64,000 nucleotides of DNA, taken from positions 1 to 64,000 of the forward strand of contig CAILLK010000101.1 of the NCBI GenBank assembly GCA_903835005.1. The letters are read 5' to 3'. The notes beneath the pieces are model-generated. The model was not told the origin of the DNA, did no database searches, and saw only the letters and a list, made by a program, of their open reading frames with translations. A program made the position numbers and the translations under genes. This document shows positions 17,266-64,000 of the stretch, one piece after another (positions within the stretch are counted from its first letter, which is position 1; each line of letters begins with the position of its first letter). Source of the stretch: an uncultured Bacteroidota bacterium (GTDB taxonomy: Bacteria > Bacteroidota > Bacteroidia > Chitinophagales > Chitinophagaceae).

Positions 17266-17760
17266 CTACTTCTTCCCCAATTCTATTACCTCGCATTGCT
17301 TCATATCCTTGCCATCTATCACAAAGCGGATGAGTGTGCGCACTTTATGCCAGCCATGCCTTCCGGCGGCGCCGGGATTCATATGCAGGCATTTGATTTT
17401 ATCATCGTAAATCACCTTCAGTATATGGGAATGACCTGTAATGAACAGTTGAGGCGGGTTGGCAAGAAGCTCAGTTCTGATAGCCGGGGCATAGTGGCCC
17501 GGGTAGCCGCCTATGTGTACCATAAACACATTTACTTCCTCACATGTAAACTTTAATTTTTCGGGATACTCCAGCCTTATGTCGTTGCCATCTATATTGC
17601 CATAAACTCCCCTTAGCGGTTTAAAAGCTTTAAGTTTATCGGCAATCTCCGCTGTACCGAAATCGCCTGCATGCCATATCTCATCGCAGTTTGCGAAATG
17701 AGTGAACACAGCCTCATCAAGGAAGTTGTGGGTATCTGATATAAGGCCGATACGGGTCAT
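17266..17760 (-). CDS. YfcE/MJ0936-type metallophosphoesterase
   Basis: IGLISDTHNFLD, IWHAGDFG, GVYGNIDGNDIR, FITGHSHILK motifs. Confidence 0.93.
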   Translation of the reverse strand: MTRIGLISDTHNFLDEAVFTHFANCDEIWHAGDFGTAEIADKLKAFKPLRGVYGNIDGNDIRLEYPEKLKFTCEEVNVFMVHIGGYPGHYAPAIRTELLANPPQLFITGHSHILKVIYDDKIKCLHMNPGAAGRHGWHKVRTLIRFVIDGKDMKQCEVIELGKK

Positions 17761-17796: not shown

Positions 17797-18810
17797 TTAT
17801 TGCCTGGTAAGTGTAGTTGTATATCTATCAAGGTCAATTTTAATTTTTTTATAGAGGAAACAGGATCTGAATTCTGTGTTAGAATTGAGAACTATTGCAA
17901 CATCCTGTTTCTGATTTCTATAGTGGTTCATTTCATTTATCAGATTTGGCTTATTACCAGTATTTTGTTCGGTGATGCTGGATTCTTTTTCTTTTATTAA
18001 AGCATGACTAACGGGCTTAAGTAACATCAAAACAATATTGTCTTTCAAAGTATGGCCCTGGATAAAAAGGTAGGAGTTTTGAGGTTCAAGTCCTTTTGCT
18101 TTCAATGAAGTTGCGATAGTCCTGATTTCATCATTTGCCAAAGGATAGCCGCTTTCCAGTACAGCAATTTTGGCTGCAATCCTTTTTCTGAAACCATCAA
18201 TTGTCCCTGAAAGTTGGTCAGTTATATCTATTTTATCAGTGAGTTTTATTATCTCACAGAAATGGGAAACAGTAAATGTTTCTTGGTCATTTTGTGATCT
18301 GAACCATAGGTTCCAAAGTAAAAGAGGGTAAACGATCTCTGAAATGGTTTGCATCGTTTCTTTGAAATCAAGCACCCGTTTATCGTGTTTGGTTGCCTGC
18401 ACACAAACAGAATGGAGGCTATTGCTGAAACACTGAAGGTTTTCTATAGAGTAAGAATAAGTCTGAAAAATAAACGGATTTTCATTCACCAGTTTTGAGG
18501 TATCCGAATGTTCTGGTAACAGATAATCATAATCACTGTCCACGCAAACTATAAGGTACTGGCCAACAGATAGGGCAAGTATTTCTTTACTTTTTTCAAT
18601 TGCTTTTTGTTTTCCTTTTTTGGTTGGGGTCTGAATGTTAAATTCTAATTCCGGTGATTCATAATCATGAAGAACATGCCGCCAGAAAGCAATATCCTCA
18701 TCACTTTCCACATATACTAATACCCGCCTGGGTGCGCCCTTTGGCAGAAAAGCATTTTCTTCCACAAGGCTTTCAGAACTTGTATTTTCAACTAAGGAAC
18801 TTGCGAGCAT
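17797..18810 (-). CDS. DUF4435-family protein, TOPRIM-like putative nuclease effector
   Basis: RRVLVYVESDEDIAFWRHVL, LIVCVDSDYDYLL (DxD), YSYSIENLQCF hallmark; start overlaps the ATPase stop. Confidence 0.85.
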   Translation of the reverse strand: MLASSLVENTSSESLVEENAFLPKGAPRRVLVYVESDEDIAFWRHVLHDYESPELEFNIQTPTKKGKQKAIEKSKEILALSVGQYLIVCVDSDYDYLLPEHSDTSKLVNENPFIFQTYSYSIENLQCFSNSLHSVCVQATKHDKRVLDFKETMQTISEIVYPLLLWNLWFRSQNDQETFTVSHFCEIIKLTDKIDITDQLSGTIDGFRKRIAAKIAVLESGYPLANDEIRTIATSLKAKGLEPQNSYLFIQGHTLKDNIVLMLLKPVSHALIKEKESSITEQNTGNKPNLINEMNHYRNQKQDVAIVLNSNTEFRSCFLYKKIKIDLDRYTTTLTRQ

Positions 18811-19793
18811 CAGTTGAGAATTTTTGTTCCTTTTTGTATTAAATCGCTGATGTTCGATACCTTATCCATCCATCCTTCCCGGATTATTGCCGGTGCATGA
18901 GTAGCAAGTATTATTTGCACATTAGGGTTGAGTTCCCGGATATATCCGATCAGTTTTTTCTGCCAGTCGAAATGAAGAGATAACTCAGGTTCATCCATAA
19001 ATAGAATGGCATTTTTATTATCTTGCACTAATACGGTAAGTAATATTACAAGCAGTTGTTTTTCGCCAGAGGATAATTGGTACGGACTAATTTTTTCATC
19101 ACCCAACAGAAAGCTTATTTCATCCTCTTTACGATTAAGTTTTTTGTTTGTTTCTTCAAAAAGGGTGTCTAAAATATCTGAAAACCTGTTTTGATTTGCC
19201 TGAATTTTCAGTAATTCACCATTTGAAATGCTATTATTGATTGCCTCAATGGTTTTTTGAGCAGTGCTTAATTTGTATTTCAAATATTTTTTTTGGAGAT
19301 GATATATTTGCCAATCTAACTCTGTTTTTGCATTGTCATCTGTGATTTTATTGATAGCTTCTTCGGGTTTAAATTCATTATCAAAGGTGCAGATGAAATC
19401 TACCATTGGAAAAAAGGCAATATCTTTTGAACTAAGTTTTTCAACTACATAAAAAGAGTAATTTTTTCCATAGTATAAAAATGTATCAATGGGATTTGTA
19501 TATTTTTCGGCACCTGATTCATTTAGTTTAGTAAAAGAAAATGACAGGAACTTTTTGCTTCCAAAGGAAATTTTGCAATTGCTGATGCTCTTACCTATGT
19601 TATCAATTTGCCCTTCGTTAAGTAAACCTGCATTACGAATTAATTTTGATGTACAATTCAAAATAGTACTCTTCCCACTCCCGTTAATACCCGACAGCAC
19701 ATTCACATCCGGATGTAAATTCCATTCCAGATCATGCTTCCCCCAGAGGCCCTTAATTTCTATTTTGGAAATGTATTTTATTTCTTCACCCAT
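18810..19793 (-). CDS. ABC/AAA_21-like ATPase partner of the DUF4435 protein
   Basis: Walker A SGINGSGKSTILN, signature QLSSGEKQLL, Walker B AILFMDEPELSLHFDWQ, H-loop ILATHAPAII. Confidence 0.9.
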   Translation of the reverse strand: MGEEIKYISKIEIKGLWGKHDLEWNLHPDVNVLSGINGSGKSTILNCTSKLIRNAGLLNEGQIDNIGKSISNCKISFGSKKFLSFSFTKLNESGAEKYTNPIDTFLYYGKNYSFYVVEKLSSKDIAFFPMVDFICTFDNEFKPEEAINKITDDNAKTELDWQIYHLQKKYLKYKLSTAQKTIEAINNSISNGELLKIQANQNRFSDILDTLFEETNKKLNRKEDEISFLLGDEKISPYQLSSGEKQLLVILLTVLVQDNKNAILFMDEPELSLHFDWQKKLIGYIRELNPNVQIILATHAPAIIREGWMDKVSNISDLIQKGTKILN

Positions 19794-19849: not shown

Positions 19850-20845
19850 TTACTCAATTATTACTTCCCTGCTGTAATGCTCCTCGACCTCATTCAATAT
19901 ATCCCCGATCTCCACCAGGTTTTCTGTCATTACCAGGCGGGTTCGGTATTCCTTTACATGGCTTAGCCCCTTGAGGTAGCTGGCATAGTGGCGGCGCATT
20001 TCGAGGATGCCCAGTTTTTCGCCCTTCCAGTTTACTGAGCCATAGAGGTGCTTGCGGCAGGCCTGCAGGCGCTCTGCAAGGGTAGGAGCGGGCAGGGTTT
20101 CTCCGGTGTTGATAAAGTGTTTTATTTCTCTGAAGATCCACGGATAGCCAATGGCGGCACGGCCTATCATAATACCATCTACTCCATACCTGTTTTTATA
20201 TTCCAGCGCCTTCTCCGGGGTATCAATATCCCCGTTTCCGAAGATGGGTATATGTATGCGCGGGTTCTCCTTTATTTTACCTATCAGTGTCCAGTCGGCT
20301 TCACCTTTATACAACTGCTGCCGGGTACGGCCATGAATGGAAATGGCCTTGACGCCTATATCCTGCATACGCTCGGCCACTTCTTCTATGTTGCGGGTAT
20401 TGTTGTCCCAGCCCAGGCGGGTTTTAATGGTCACAGGCAGGGTGGTGGAGCGGATACAGGCTTTGGTGAGGCGCACCATCAATTCTATGTCTTTAAGGAC
20501 TGCAGCCCCAGCTCCTTTACATACCACTTTCTTTACCGGGCAGCCGAAATTTATATCCAGCAGGTCGGGGTTGGTGGTATCCACAATCTTGGCGCTCAGG
20601 GCCATAGCCTCTTCATCGCCACCAAAAATCTGGATGCCTATTGGTTTTTCGTAATCAAAAATATCCAGCTTCTGCCTGCTCTTCATGGCATCACGGATCA
20701 GGCCTTCTGATGAGATAAACTCCGTATACATCAGATCTGCCCCGTAATCCTTACAAACAGCCCGGAAGGGCGGGTCGCTCACATCTTCCATCGGCGCCAG
20801 CAGCAGCGGGAATTCCCCCAACTCTATGTTATCTATTTTCACCAT
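19850..20845 (-). CDS. dusB: tRNA-dihydrouridine synthase
   Basis: LAPMEDVSDPPFRAVCKDYGADLMYTEFISSEGL, DINFGCPVKKVVCKGAGAA, SIHGRTRQQLYKGEADW. Confidence 0.95.
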   Translation of the reverse strand: MVKIDNIELGEFPLLLAPMEDVSDPPFRAVCKDYGADLMYTEFISSEGLIRDAMKSRQKLDIFDYEKPIGIQIFGGDEEAMALSAKIVDTTNPDLLDINFGCPVKKVVCKGAGAAVLKDIELMVRLTKACIRSTTLPVTIKTRLGWDNNTRNIEEVAERMQDIGVKAISIHGRTRQQLYKGEADWTLIGKIKENPRIHIPIFGNGDIDTPEKALEYKNRYGVDGIMIGRAAIGYPWIFREIKHFINTGETLPAPTLAERLQACRKHLYGSVNWKGEKLGILEMRRHYASYLKGLSHVKEYRTRLVMTENLVEIGDILNEVEEHYSREVIIE

Positions 20846-60000: not shown

Positions 60001-61212
60001 TCAGTCCTTTATCGCCGCAATACCCGGCAATTCCTTCCCTTCAAAATACTCCAGCATTGCACCTCCGCCGGTAGATACATAACTTACCTTATCGGCGAGT
60101 GCGAATTTATTAACTGCAGCTACACTGTCTCCGCCACCCACAAGTGAATAAGCCCCATGTTTTGTAGCTTCAGCCACTGCAAGCGCAATAGCCTTTGAAC
60201 CGTGCTGAAATTTATCCATTTCAAAAACGCCCATTGGGCCATTCCACAGAATAGTTTTTGATTTACTTATTATTTTGCAGAATTGGGCAATCGCCATCTG
60301 CCCGATATCCAGCCCCATCCAGCCCGCAGGTATTTCATTGCTGAGCGAAGATGAAGTATCGGCATCTGCAGCAAATTTGTCAGCTATAATACTATCGGCT
60401 GGCAAATGGATGCAAACACCCTTTTCTTCGGCTTTTTTAAGAAGCGCAATCGCCATATCCATGCGGTCGTCTTCGCACAGAGAGTTGCCTATCTGGCCAC
60501 CCTCAGCTTTGAAGAAGGTATACGCCATACCACCGCCAATGATTATGTCTGTAGCCCTGTCCAGCAGTTGCTCAATGATCAGTATTTTGTCCGATACCTT
60601 GGCGCCGCCAATTATAGCAGTAAATGGCTTCTGGTTATTATGCATTACCTTTTCGGCAGCCATTACTTCGCCCTCCATCAGCAGCCCGAACATCTTCTTA
60701 TCGCCCGGGAAAAACTGTGCTATAACCGCAGTTGATGCATGTGCCCTGTGTGCGGTGCCGAAAGCATCATTCACATACACATCACCCAGTTTCGATAGCT
60801 TTTCAGCAAATTCTTTATCGCCTTTTTCTTCCTGTTTGTAGTACCTCAGATTCTCCAGCAGCAACACCTGGCCCGGCTTAAGTTCCGCAGCTTTTTTAAC
60901 CGCATCCTCACTGATACAATCATCGGCAAACTGTACCTCAATACCCAGCAGATTACCTAAATATGGAACTACCGGTTTCAAAGAAAAATCTGCCAAAGTA
61001 AGATTTGGTTTCTTCTCAATATCCTTGAGTGGCCTGCCCCAGTGGCTCATCAGTATTACGCTGCCACCATCGGCAAGTACTTTTTTAATAGTGGGCAATG
61101 CGCCCTGTATACGGGTATCATCAGTAATAACACCATTCTTTACAGGTACATTAAAATCTACGCGTATCAGCGCTTTCTGGTTTGCGAAATTGTGTGTGGA
61201 GAATGTGGACAT
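60001..61212 (-). CDS. pgk: Phosphoglycerate kinase
   Basis: [82 protein letters not shown]. Confidence 0.98.
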
Positions 61213-61226
61213 GTTTGCTTTCTTAT

Positions 61227-61760
61227 TTAGAAGTCTATATTGTACTTTTCTTCAAGTATTATTTGATATTTTTTAGCAAAATCACCAAATTTAGTATCAT
61301 TTGCTGCTCCAGCTATTCTGGAGTAATTTTTAAAACAAATTATAGCTGTTGTTTCATCTTTATTCAAAACTACTCCCTTTGTTTCGAAATAATCAATAGT
61401 ATTCCCGAGTTGCTGTATAGCTTTATTTCTCTTGTCCTTCCGGGTGCCGGTACTGCTACCTTTTATTTCTACAAAATAAGTTTTACGGTCATTGAATAAA
61501 ACACAATCGCATTTTTTCTGTCCTTCTTCATTTATAAGACATCTGTCAGTCTTTACTAAAAAGATAGCAGAGGATGAAGAATTATTTACAGTTAATTGGT
61601 AATCACCACTATGAACAATTCTTACTGGTTGAATATCTTCAGCATCAAAAATGAAAAATTCTTTTTCATTGATAATGTGGTAGGAACTTTTGTTTTCACA
61701 GAGTGATTTATCGGCAAATTTACAATCACCCAGTTTATCTTTTAATTGTTGTAAGATCAT
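61227..61760 (-). CDS. Putative PD-(D/E)XK nuclease-fold protein, partner of the upstream ATPase
   Basis: [20 protein letters not shown] fits D-x(n)-ExK; ATGA overlap with the ATPase stop. Confidence 0.6.
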
Positions 61761-63028
61761 ATCATTAAACGGGTTAAAGCATCAAAATCATCCCCCATCT
61801 CATCTGAAACATCATCAATTTTGTTGTCAATGATCAACCCGATTTCCCGGTTTAAAATAGTTTCCGCTCCTCCACCGCTGATTTGGTATGCAGAGAAAAT
61901 ATTTGGTTGTATATTAGCATTTGGAGGAATTATTTCTTTTAGTTTATTCTCAATTTCGGGAACATATCCAGCACTTGCCGGACTACCTTTCTCATTCCAT
62001 ACCTTGCTGGCATATAATAAATTATTGAATGCGGATAAAATATAAGGGCTGTGTGTAGTATAAGTATGTATGGCTCCTCTATCATAAGAATATGCTTCTT
62101 GTCGAAGAGATTCGATTAATTTAATTAATGTGTATTGCGCTTTTGGGAATAAATTTAACTCAGGTTCTTCAATCACAAACGAACGCTGATAGCTGGTTTT
62201 ATCATGTGATAAAATCGGAATTAGAATATTGACAGCACTTTGTATACCAGATGCCGCTTCGATTAATTTGATGCTTGTTTTTTCATTGACAAATATTCTA
62301 CCTTCTCCGTTTATGTTTTTGTATTTTAAATTGGTATCCAGGAAGGCTAAATCAATTTCATTTATTGTAGATCTTTCCAGTTCAGCCCCGAGTAATAGAA
62401 TATGTTTTGGAATGGGGACTTTATTTAATAATAAATTGAAAGAGAAGTCCTTAACTAAATTTATAAAACTTCTTTCCGCAGCTATATATGTTGGCGCTTG
62501 GGTACTAAAATAATTTTCTAATTCAATAGCAGAATCAAGCACTTTTAAAAACTGGTCAAGTTTGTTTTCATGAGTATTATCAATACTTATTTCATGCCAT
62601 TTAGGATTAATAGATTGGTAGTTTTCTAATTTCTTAATTTGATTTTTAACAGTAATATCAATAAAATCGGCTTTTTTAAAGTCTTCGATTTTAGTTGATA
62701 ATTCGTCTATTTCATGTTTTAGTTTTGGGTAATAATTTATTGTCTGATCAATATATGAGAGTTTATGTACTTCAGATTCAAAAATAATTTCAGTATCAAT
62801 ATTCAGAAAAGCAGCAATATTGTATTCTTCCAAGGCGTCTAAAAATGAGGCTCTATTATCGCTACCTCCATTTTTCAAAAACTTCCTCGGCGCTTTAAAA
62901 ATAGTATACAATTTAGCCAATGCGCTCTTCCCGCTGGCCTGAGGCCCTATAAAAACATTTACGTTTCTCAGGTCTAAGTCAACGAATTTAATTGGGCCAA
63001 AATTCTTTACTATTAAGCGCGATTGCAT
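61757..63028 (-). CDS. AAA_15/AAA_21-like ABC-type ATPase
   Basis: LIVKNFGPIKFVDLDL, Walker A IGPQASGKSALAKLY, Walker B SFVIEEPELNLFPKAQ, H-loop IHTYTTHSPYILSAFNNLL. Confidence 0.88.
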   Translation of the reverse strand: MQSRLIVKNFGPIKFVDLDLRNVNVFIGPQASGKSALAKLYTIFKAPRKFLKNGGSDNRASFLDALEEYNIAAFLNIDTEIIFESEVHKLSYIDQTINYYPKLKHEIDELSTKIEDFKKADFIDITVKNQIKKLENYQSINPKWHEISIDNTHENKLDQFLKVLDSAIELENYFSTQAPTYIAAERSFINLVKDFSFNLLLNKVPIPKHILLLGAELERSTINEIDLAFLDTNLKYKNINGEGRIFVNEKTSIKLIEAASGIQSAVNILIPILSHDKTSYQRSFVIEEPELNLFPKAQYTLIKLIESLRQEAYSYDRGAIHTYTTHSPYILSAFNNLLYASKVWNEKGSPASAGYVPEIENKLKEIIPPNANIQPNIFSAYQISGGGAETILNREIGLIIDNKIDDVSDEMGDDFDALTRLMI

Positions 63029-63092
63029 GTCCTATCTGAAAAATAAGGTGTGAAAATACAGAACTTGAGGTTATAATCTTGATTTCTATCCC

Positions 63093-63317
63093 TTAAGCAG
63101 CATACAATAGACAAGCTTCAATGTCTTCTGTTTCTAATATCGGATGCTCTTCCAGAATCATATCCTTAGTCATTCCACTGGCCATCATCTCTAAAACATC
63201 ATTCACCCGGAATCTGATTCCACGAATAATTGGCTTTCCTGCGAAGATGCCCGGATTGGTTGTAATTCTGCCCAATAATCCATTTTGATTATTTTCCATT
63301 ATCAACAATTTCTTCAC
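63093..63317 (-). CDS. DUF433 family protein (antitoxin-like), no adjacent toxin seen
   Basis: GRITTNPGIFAGKPIIRGIRFRVNDVLEMMASGMTKDMILEEHPILETEDIEACLLYAA; start may be the internal Met at about 63299. Confidence 0.85.
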   Translation of the reverse strand: MKKLLIMENNQNGLLGRITTNPGIFAGKPIIRGIRFRVNDVLEMMASGMTKDMILEEHPILETEDIEACLLYAA

Positions 63318-63328
63318 AAAAATATAAA

Positions 63329-63352
63329 AAAAGACCCTGAAAAGGGTCTTTT
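63329..63352 (-). terminator. Intrinsic terminator downstream of gap
   Basis: AAAAGACCC-TGAAAA-GGGTCTTTT perfect 9-bp arms with A/T flanks. Confidence 0.75.

Positions 63353-63378: not shown

Positions 63379-64000
<622 letters not shown>

Follow-up and report, generated by a model that had tools for sequence, protein, structure and literature searches.

Septu (PtuA and PtuB) and the PtuAB effectors of the retrons Ec78/Eco7 have a gene for an ABC/SMC-type ATPase with that of a small nuclease downstream, and PtuB of Septu is an HNH nuclease. PARIS combines an AAA_15/AAA_21 ATPase (AriA) with a smaller effector (AriB), which is a DUF4435, TOPRIM-like protein, while Gabija and the OLD family have an OLD-like ATPase core, accompanied in Gabija by a TOPRIM domain and the UvrD-like helicase GajB. 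The usual homes of defence genes are defence islands, prophages and other mobile elements. PADLOC also holds PDC-x entries, which have been described as unpublished candidates (PMC11811056).

The locus described here lies in a stretch of 64,000 nucleotides from an uncultured bacterium of the family Chitinophagaceae, hereafter the window. The original prediction gave the minus-strand order as gap, terminator, DUF433, ATPase, small protein and pgk, with an ATGA overlap of 4 nt between the ATPase and small-protein genes and 14 nt between the small-protein stop and the pgk ATG (61212), and every one of these features was found (Table 1). Our main reading, held at a probability of roughly 0.65, is that the ATPase and the small protein form a two-gene ATPase-nuclease cassette, probably anti-phage and Septu-like, inserted between the gap terminator and pgk.

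The ATPase shares the PtuA-type fold, but the partner is PD-(D/E)XK-like, and neither an HNH nor any other Pfam match above the cut-off was found in it. Similarity to PARIS is limited to the ATPase class, since the cassette has no AriB-like gene and the small protein matches neither AriB nor DUF4435 in Pfam or the PADLOC models. Core residues of the ATPase are OLD-like; unlike Gabija, however, the 423-aa protein has a single ATPase domain, no TOPRIM domain being found by Pfam scan or in the model, and its 177-aa partner has no helicase match. In contrast, the two adjacent genes match both models of the PADLOC candidate PDC-M29, the ATPase matching PDC-M29A at 1.7e-34 and the small protein PDC-M29B at 6.9e-17, as judged by E-value against the models and not by PADLOC system cut-offs. 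PDC-M29 is a computational candidate without name or assay, and a search of the available literature on it and on its genomic placement returned nothing. The statement that the pair corresponds to no named system stands. The pair is an unnamed variant of the ATPase-nuclease type already flagged as PDC-M29, and its residence in core operons is the most interesting part.

A PARIS-type pair is also present elsewhere in the window (17797-19793, minus strand). Its AriA-like ATPase (8.6e-57 against the PADLOC AriA model) and AriB-like DUF4435 protein (6.9e-39) are encoded by genes overlapping by 1 nt, which lie in a run of ordinary genes with dusB (19850-20845) on one side and a metallophosphoesterase gene (17266-17760) on the other.

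Table 1. Features of the gap-pgk region, in window coordinates
Feature	Position	Strand	Basis
gap (glyceraldehyde-3-phosphate dehydrogenase), 3' part	63379..64000	-	95% protein identity to sister genome G312
gap intrinsic terminator	63329..63352	-	hairpin and U-run, -12.6 kcal/mol, z = -5.3
TATATTTTTG element directly 3' of the gap terminator	63317..63326	-	sequence comparison
DUF433 protein	63093..63299	-	PF04255 6.5e-20
AAGTTCTGTATTTT element upstream of the cassette ATPase	63053..63066	-	common to L089, L095, L101, L118
ABC/SMC-type ATPase, PDC-M29A-like	61757..63028	-	AAA_15 4e-19
Small PD-(D/E)XK-like nuclease (putative), PDC-M29B-like, 177 aa	61227..61760	-	PADLOC match and invariant residues
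Gap from small-protein stop to pgk ATG, without terminator	61213..61226	.	sequence
pgk (phosphoglycerate kinase)	60001..61212	-	PF00162 3.6e-151

The ATPase and its putative nuclease partner

The ATPase carries a Walker A motif (GPQASGKS), a Walker B motif (VIEEPE) and an H-loop (THSPY). Its predicted structure (pLDDT 87.6) matches Rad50, SMC heads, PtuA of Septu (8eea, 8ee4) and retron PtuA, and a profile of the protein matches the PtuA sequence at 2.8e-5. The view that this is a defence-like ATPase and nuclease architecture is borne out by this PtuA/Rad50-like fold, together with the PADLOC candidate match. The nearest relative of the ATPase, at locus L085, is 80% identical. Against the nearest relative, dN/dS is 0.065 and 0.08 for the two cassette genes, which indicates purifying selection on both and argues that both are maintained; since the order of the pair is also kept in about 50 loci, the two reading frames are not chance. 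We propose, from the ATGA overlap, that the small-protein gene is translationally coupled to that of the ATPase. A second, divergent ATPase-nuclease pair occurs elsewhere in the same genome (C37).

With the small protein as query, single-sequence searches of Pfam and NCBIfam were uninformative and a profile search matched no PDB sequence. Comparison with 53 relatives, with identity down to 16%, was more telling: D72, D85, E98, K100 and Q117 are invariant, and D85, E98 and K100, present in 53/53 sequences, make up the D...(D/E)xK active-site pattern of the PD-(D/E)XK superfamily. In the predicted structure (pLDDT 90.7), D85 opens one strand, E98-K100 sits on the strand after it, and the helix that follows contains Q117. 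The top Foldseek matches of this model are nearly all PD-(D/E)XK nucleases, although none reaches E<1e-3 and the TM-scores are at most about 0.34; structural neighbours include SfsA, N.BspD6I, HincII, Hjc, T7 endonuclease I and LmuA. The suggestion that the small protein has a PD-(D/E)XK core is therefore supported by the motif and fits the order of secondary-structure elements in the model, although no single solved structure matches it at E<1e-3. Residue pattern and modelled fold make it very likely that the small protein is a divergent PD-(D/E)XK nuclease. C21, C74 and C84 are nearly invariant among the same relatives, two of them adjoin active-site residues, and a metal-binding role for the three is possible. 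The invariant residues supply an active-site hypothesis for PDC-M29.

The gap-pgk spacer as an exchange site

The region upstream of pgk was read in 30 genomes of the same genus, 22 of which have gap upstream. Fourteen of these 22 spacers are empty (90-183 bp), that of the closest sister among them; three hold the pair, four hold DUF433 and one holds unrelated genes. In the other eight genomes pgk is located elsewhere or the contig ends, and large inserts before pgk were rejected there because the visible neighbours are rpsP or other ordinary genes. A further genome, G315 (locus L085), brings the carriers in the genus to four; its contig runs from gap into the pair and ends there. The pair also precedes pgk in G371, G080 and G178, of other genera, in G178 without gap upstream, and the versions in these seven genomes are divergent. 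Strong matches to the pair were found in only 8/396 genomes of the family, and the distribution is patchy. As the gap-cassette-pgk order is not conserved, the earlier view of an insertion and not an ancestral arrangement is upheld. What has to be added is that this placement is not a one-off, as relatives of the pair often reside in core operons.

On a host tree built from gap and pgk, every carrier of the genus has an empty genome as its nearest neighbour (G000/G312, G296/G268, G306/G300 and G315/G339). With 7 carriers, presence of the pair costs 7 changes on this tree, of which well supported branches force at least 4, and parsimony alone does not separate gains from losses. The common ancestor of these genera could already have had the pair in front of pgk, with repeated losses since and no repeated insertion; the versions of the pair from the gap-pgk loci of five genomes do group together, with weak support (84/85), and a single clade of all seven gap/pgk copies is not rejected (p = 0.12). 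We consider this origin unlikely, because a single clade of the four same-genus copies is rejected (AU p = 0.015), because G000 and G315 share the closest pairs and yet their hosts are not sisters, and because DUF433-type modules in the same spacer of other genomes point to an exchange site. With an empty sister for each same-genus carrier and disagreement between pair and host trees, the pair probably arrived at gap-pgk more than once. Co-transfer of the cassette with flanking gap or pgk was also considered and is unsupported, since the flanks track the host sister and not the nearest relative of the pair: the window's gap and pgk stay close to their counterparts in the empty sister as far as the edge of the insert (about 80-99% nucleotide identity), while the nearest pair is in another host.

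The DUF433 gene has a different history. Relatives align with an ATG at 63299, which is a likelier start than the GTG at 63317 of the mechanical ORF call. Nine of its closest homologues in the family occupy the gap-pgk spacer and one more sits immediately upstream of pgk; they represent seven other genera, and 8/10 have a DUF5615 neighbour, the G309 toxin matching PF18480 at 1.9e-16. Three of the four DUF433-bearing spacers of the same genus likewise include a DUF5615-type toxin gene. The window has no DUF5615 gene, although one is present in the same spacer of relatives. DUF433 was rejected as a part of the cassette, given that the nearest pair, in L085, lacks it and that DUF433-DUF5615 occurs alone in relatives. 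The window gene, a close homologue of those in the spacers of relatives, is probably the leftover antitoxin half of a separate DUF433-DUF5615 toxin-antitoxin-like module. It is thus an orphan here, as had been proposed, but also a member of another cassette type that favours the same spacer. Searches of the available literature on DUF433 with DUF5615 and on gap/pgk hotspots found nothing.

In a wider sample of 60 family genomes, 46 have gap upstream of pgk and 35 of these spacers are nearly empty. The remainder include one PIN-domain toxin-antitoxin pair, one DUF433 remnant and several copies of an unrelated 116-aa protein. Between gap and pgk, then, lies a small exchange site. The PIN pair, in L208 (G090, another genus), consists of a PIN_2 toxin (4.7e-27) and a small upstream ORF. 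The protein of about 116 aa belongs to an unannotated family of putative membrane proteins, seen in the spacers of L224, L234, L235, L246, L251, L252 and L257, and the one member scanned had no Pfam match.

Promoter elements and residence in core operons

TATATTTTTG is probably a Bacteroidota -7 promoter element; spacers with and without inserts both have a similar TATTTTT(A/G)C behind the terminator of gap. Empty spacers have TATTTTTAC at this place, and the ATPase gene of L085, L088, L090 and L094 begins 17-19 nt beyond that element, so that in these loci the cassette seems to have captured the pgk promoter. The window, L089, L095, L101 and L118 have AAGTTCnGTA(T/A)TTT just upstream of the ATPase; AAGTTCTGTATTTT occurs only once within the window and is probably the cassette's own promoter. 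Wherever the junction is visible, pgk begins 14-44 nt past the cassette, except in G080. Co-transcription of the cassette and pgk is the simplest reading of this arrangement, and from the anatomy (a 14-nt gap and no terminator) pgk would depend on transcription of the cassette; a pgk promoter could also lie inside the small-protein ORF. In G080, an unannotated gene of 157 aa (L042:5386-5859, minus strand) stands between the nuclease gene and pgk, preceded by a cassette-like element, AGTTCTATATTTT.

When about 85,000 species genomes were searched, 67 loci came up, nearly all in Bacteroidota and most with the pair in the same gene order. Host-operon neighbours were checked against Pfam, except smc, which was recognised by eye. 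In L129, L130 and L140, a divergent version of the pair interrupts the normally contiguous sdhA-sdhB operon, with 16-121 nt upstream and -19 to 23 nt downstream. Relatives follow dnaK in seven Flavobacterium, and also metF, smc, carB, lysS, birA and methylmalonyl-CoA mutase genes; others precede lpxD (4-nt overlap) or NAD synthase, or are flanked on both sides by Fe-S oxidoreductase genes (1 nt). A co-directional upstream gene within 160 nt was found at 31/47 pair loci vs 5/25 GajA/PtuA loci (p = 4e-4), and at 20/38 vs 5/25 once shared contexts were collapsed (p = 0.017), the control being an imperfect one: small (PtuA gave four loci and GajA was added), based on mechanical ORFs and unscored for core status. 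The pattern of residence in core transcription units is therefore suggestive and not proven. The cassette contains no recombinase gene. Carriage on phages or plasmids has scant support, a few distant matches being all that the phage and plasmid collections returned.

Function and significance

By analogy with PtuAB, the Rad50/PtuA-like ATPase would be both scaffold and sensor, binding the nuclease and keeping it inactive, until a change of nucleotide state or ligand brought about by the phage switches the nuclease on; the activated enzyme would then cut nucleic acid and stop the infection. Both the anti-phage function and the regulation of the nuclease by the ATPase are inferred. Lodged in a housekeeping transcription unit and having no recombinase, the cassette would be expressed from the adjacent constitutive promoter or from its own, on a transcript that probably carries pgk.

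The main rival to defence is that the pair is a toxin-antitoxin-like selfish module, its ATPase restraining a toxin nuclease and its persistence due to addiction and linkage to essential genes. A spacer shared with DUF433-DUF5615 and PIN toxin-antitoxin modules would suit this, as would the small, apparently coupled two-gene format and the often tight fit into essential transcription units. Against it are the match to a candidate defence system, the architecture of an ATPase-nuclease defence pair and the size of the ATPase, unusually large for an antitoxin, and we regard it as distinctly improbable as the sole explanation, although addiction is compatible with defence and the two may overlap. 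A part in housekeeping or regulation, linked to glycolysis or to the host operon (control of pgk mRNA, for instance), could account for the recurrent site before pgk in several genera, including one without gap upstream. The closest sisters, however, lack the pair, few genomes of the family have it, and its relatives adjoin genes as unrelated as sdhA/B, dnaK, metF and lysS. This role is very unlikely, and with a patchy distribution and a PADLOC match the pair gives no indication of a housekeeping function.

With anti-phage defence as the preferred function, the locus and its relatives form an uncharacterised ATPase-nuclease family that recurs in operons for core metabolism and information processing. 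It has no recombinase gene, and its closest relatives have empty sites. The gap-pgk locus offers a natural experiment, since among related genomes it can be empty, hold a toxin-antitoxin-like module or hold the ATPase-nuclease pair. Two questions become testable: how a cassette moves when no integrase is apparent, and whether linkage to essential genes stabilises genes for defence. We put forward, tentatively and at somewhat less than even odds, that a mobile ATPase-nuclease defence family persists by co-directional insertion into core housekeeping units (gap|pgk, sdhA|sdhB, dnaK, metF, carB, lysS, smc, birA and lpxD), borrowing their constitutive expression, and that losing it would carry a cost, the essential gene downstream being dependent on its transcript. 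If true, core operons would be an alternative to defence islands and mobile elements.
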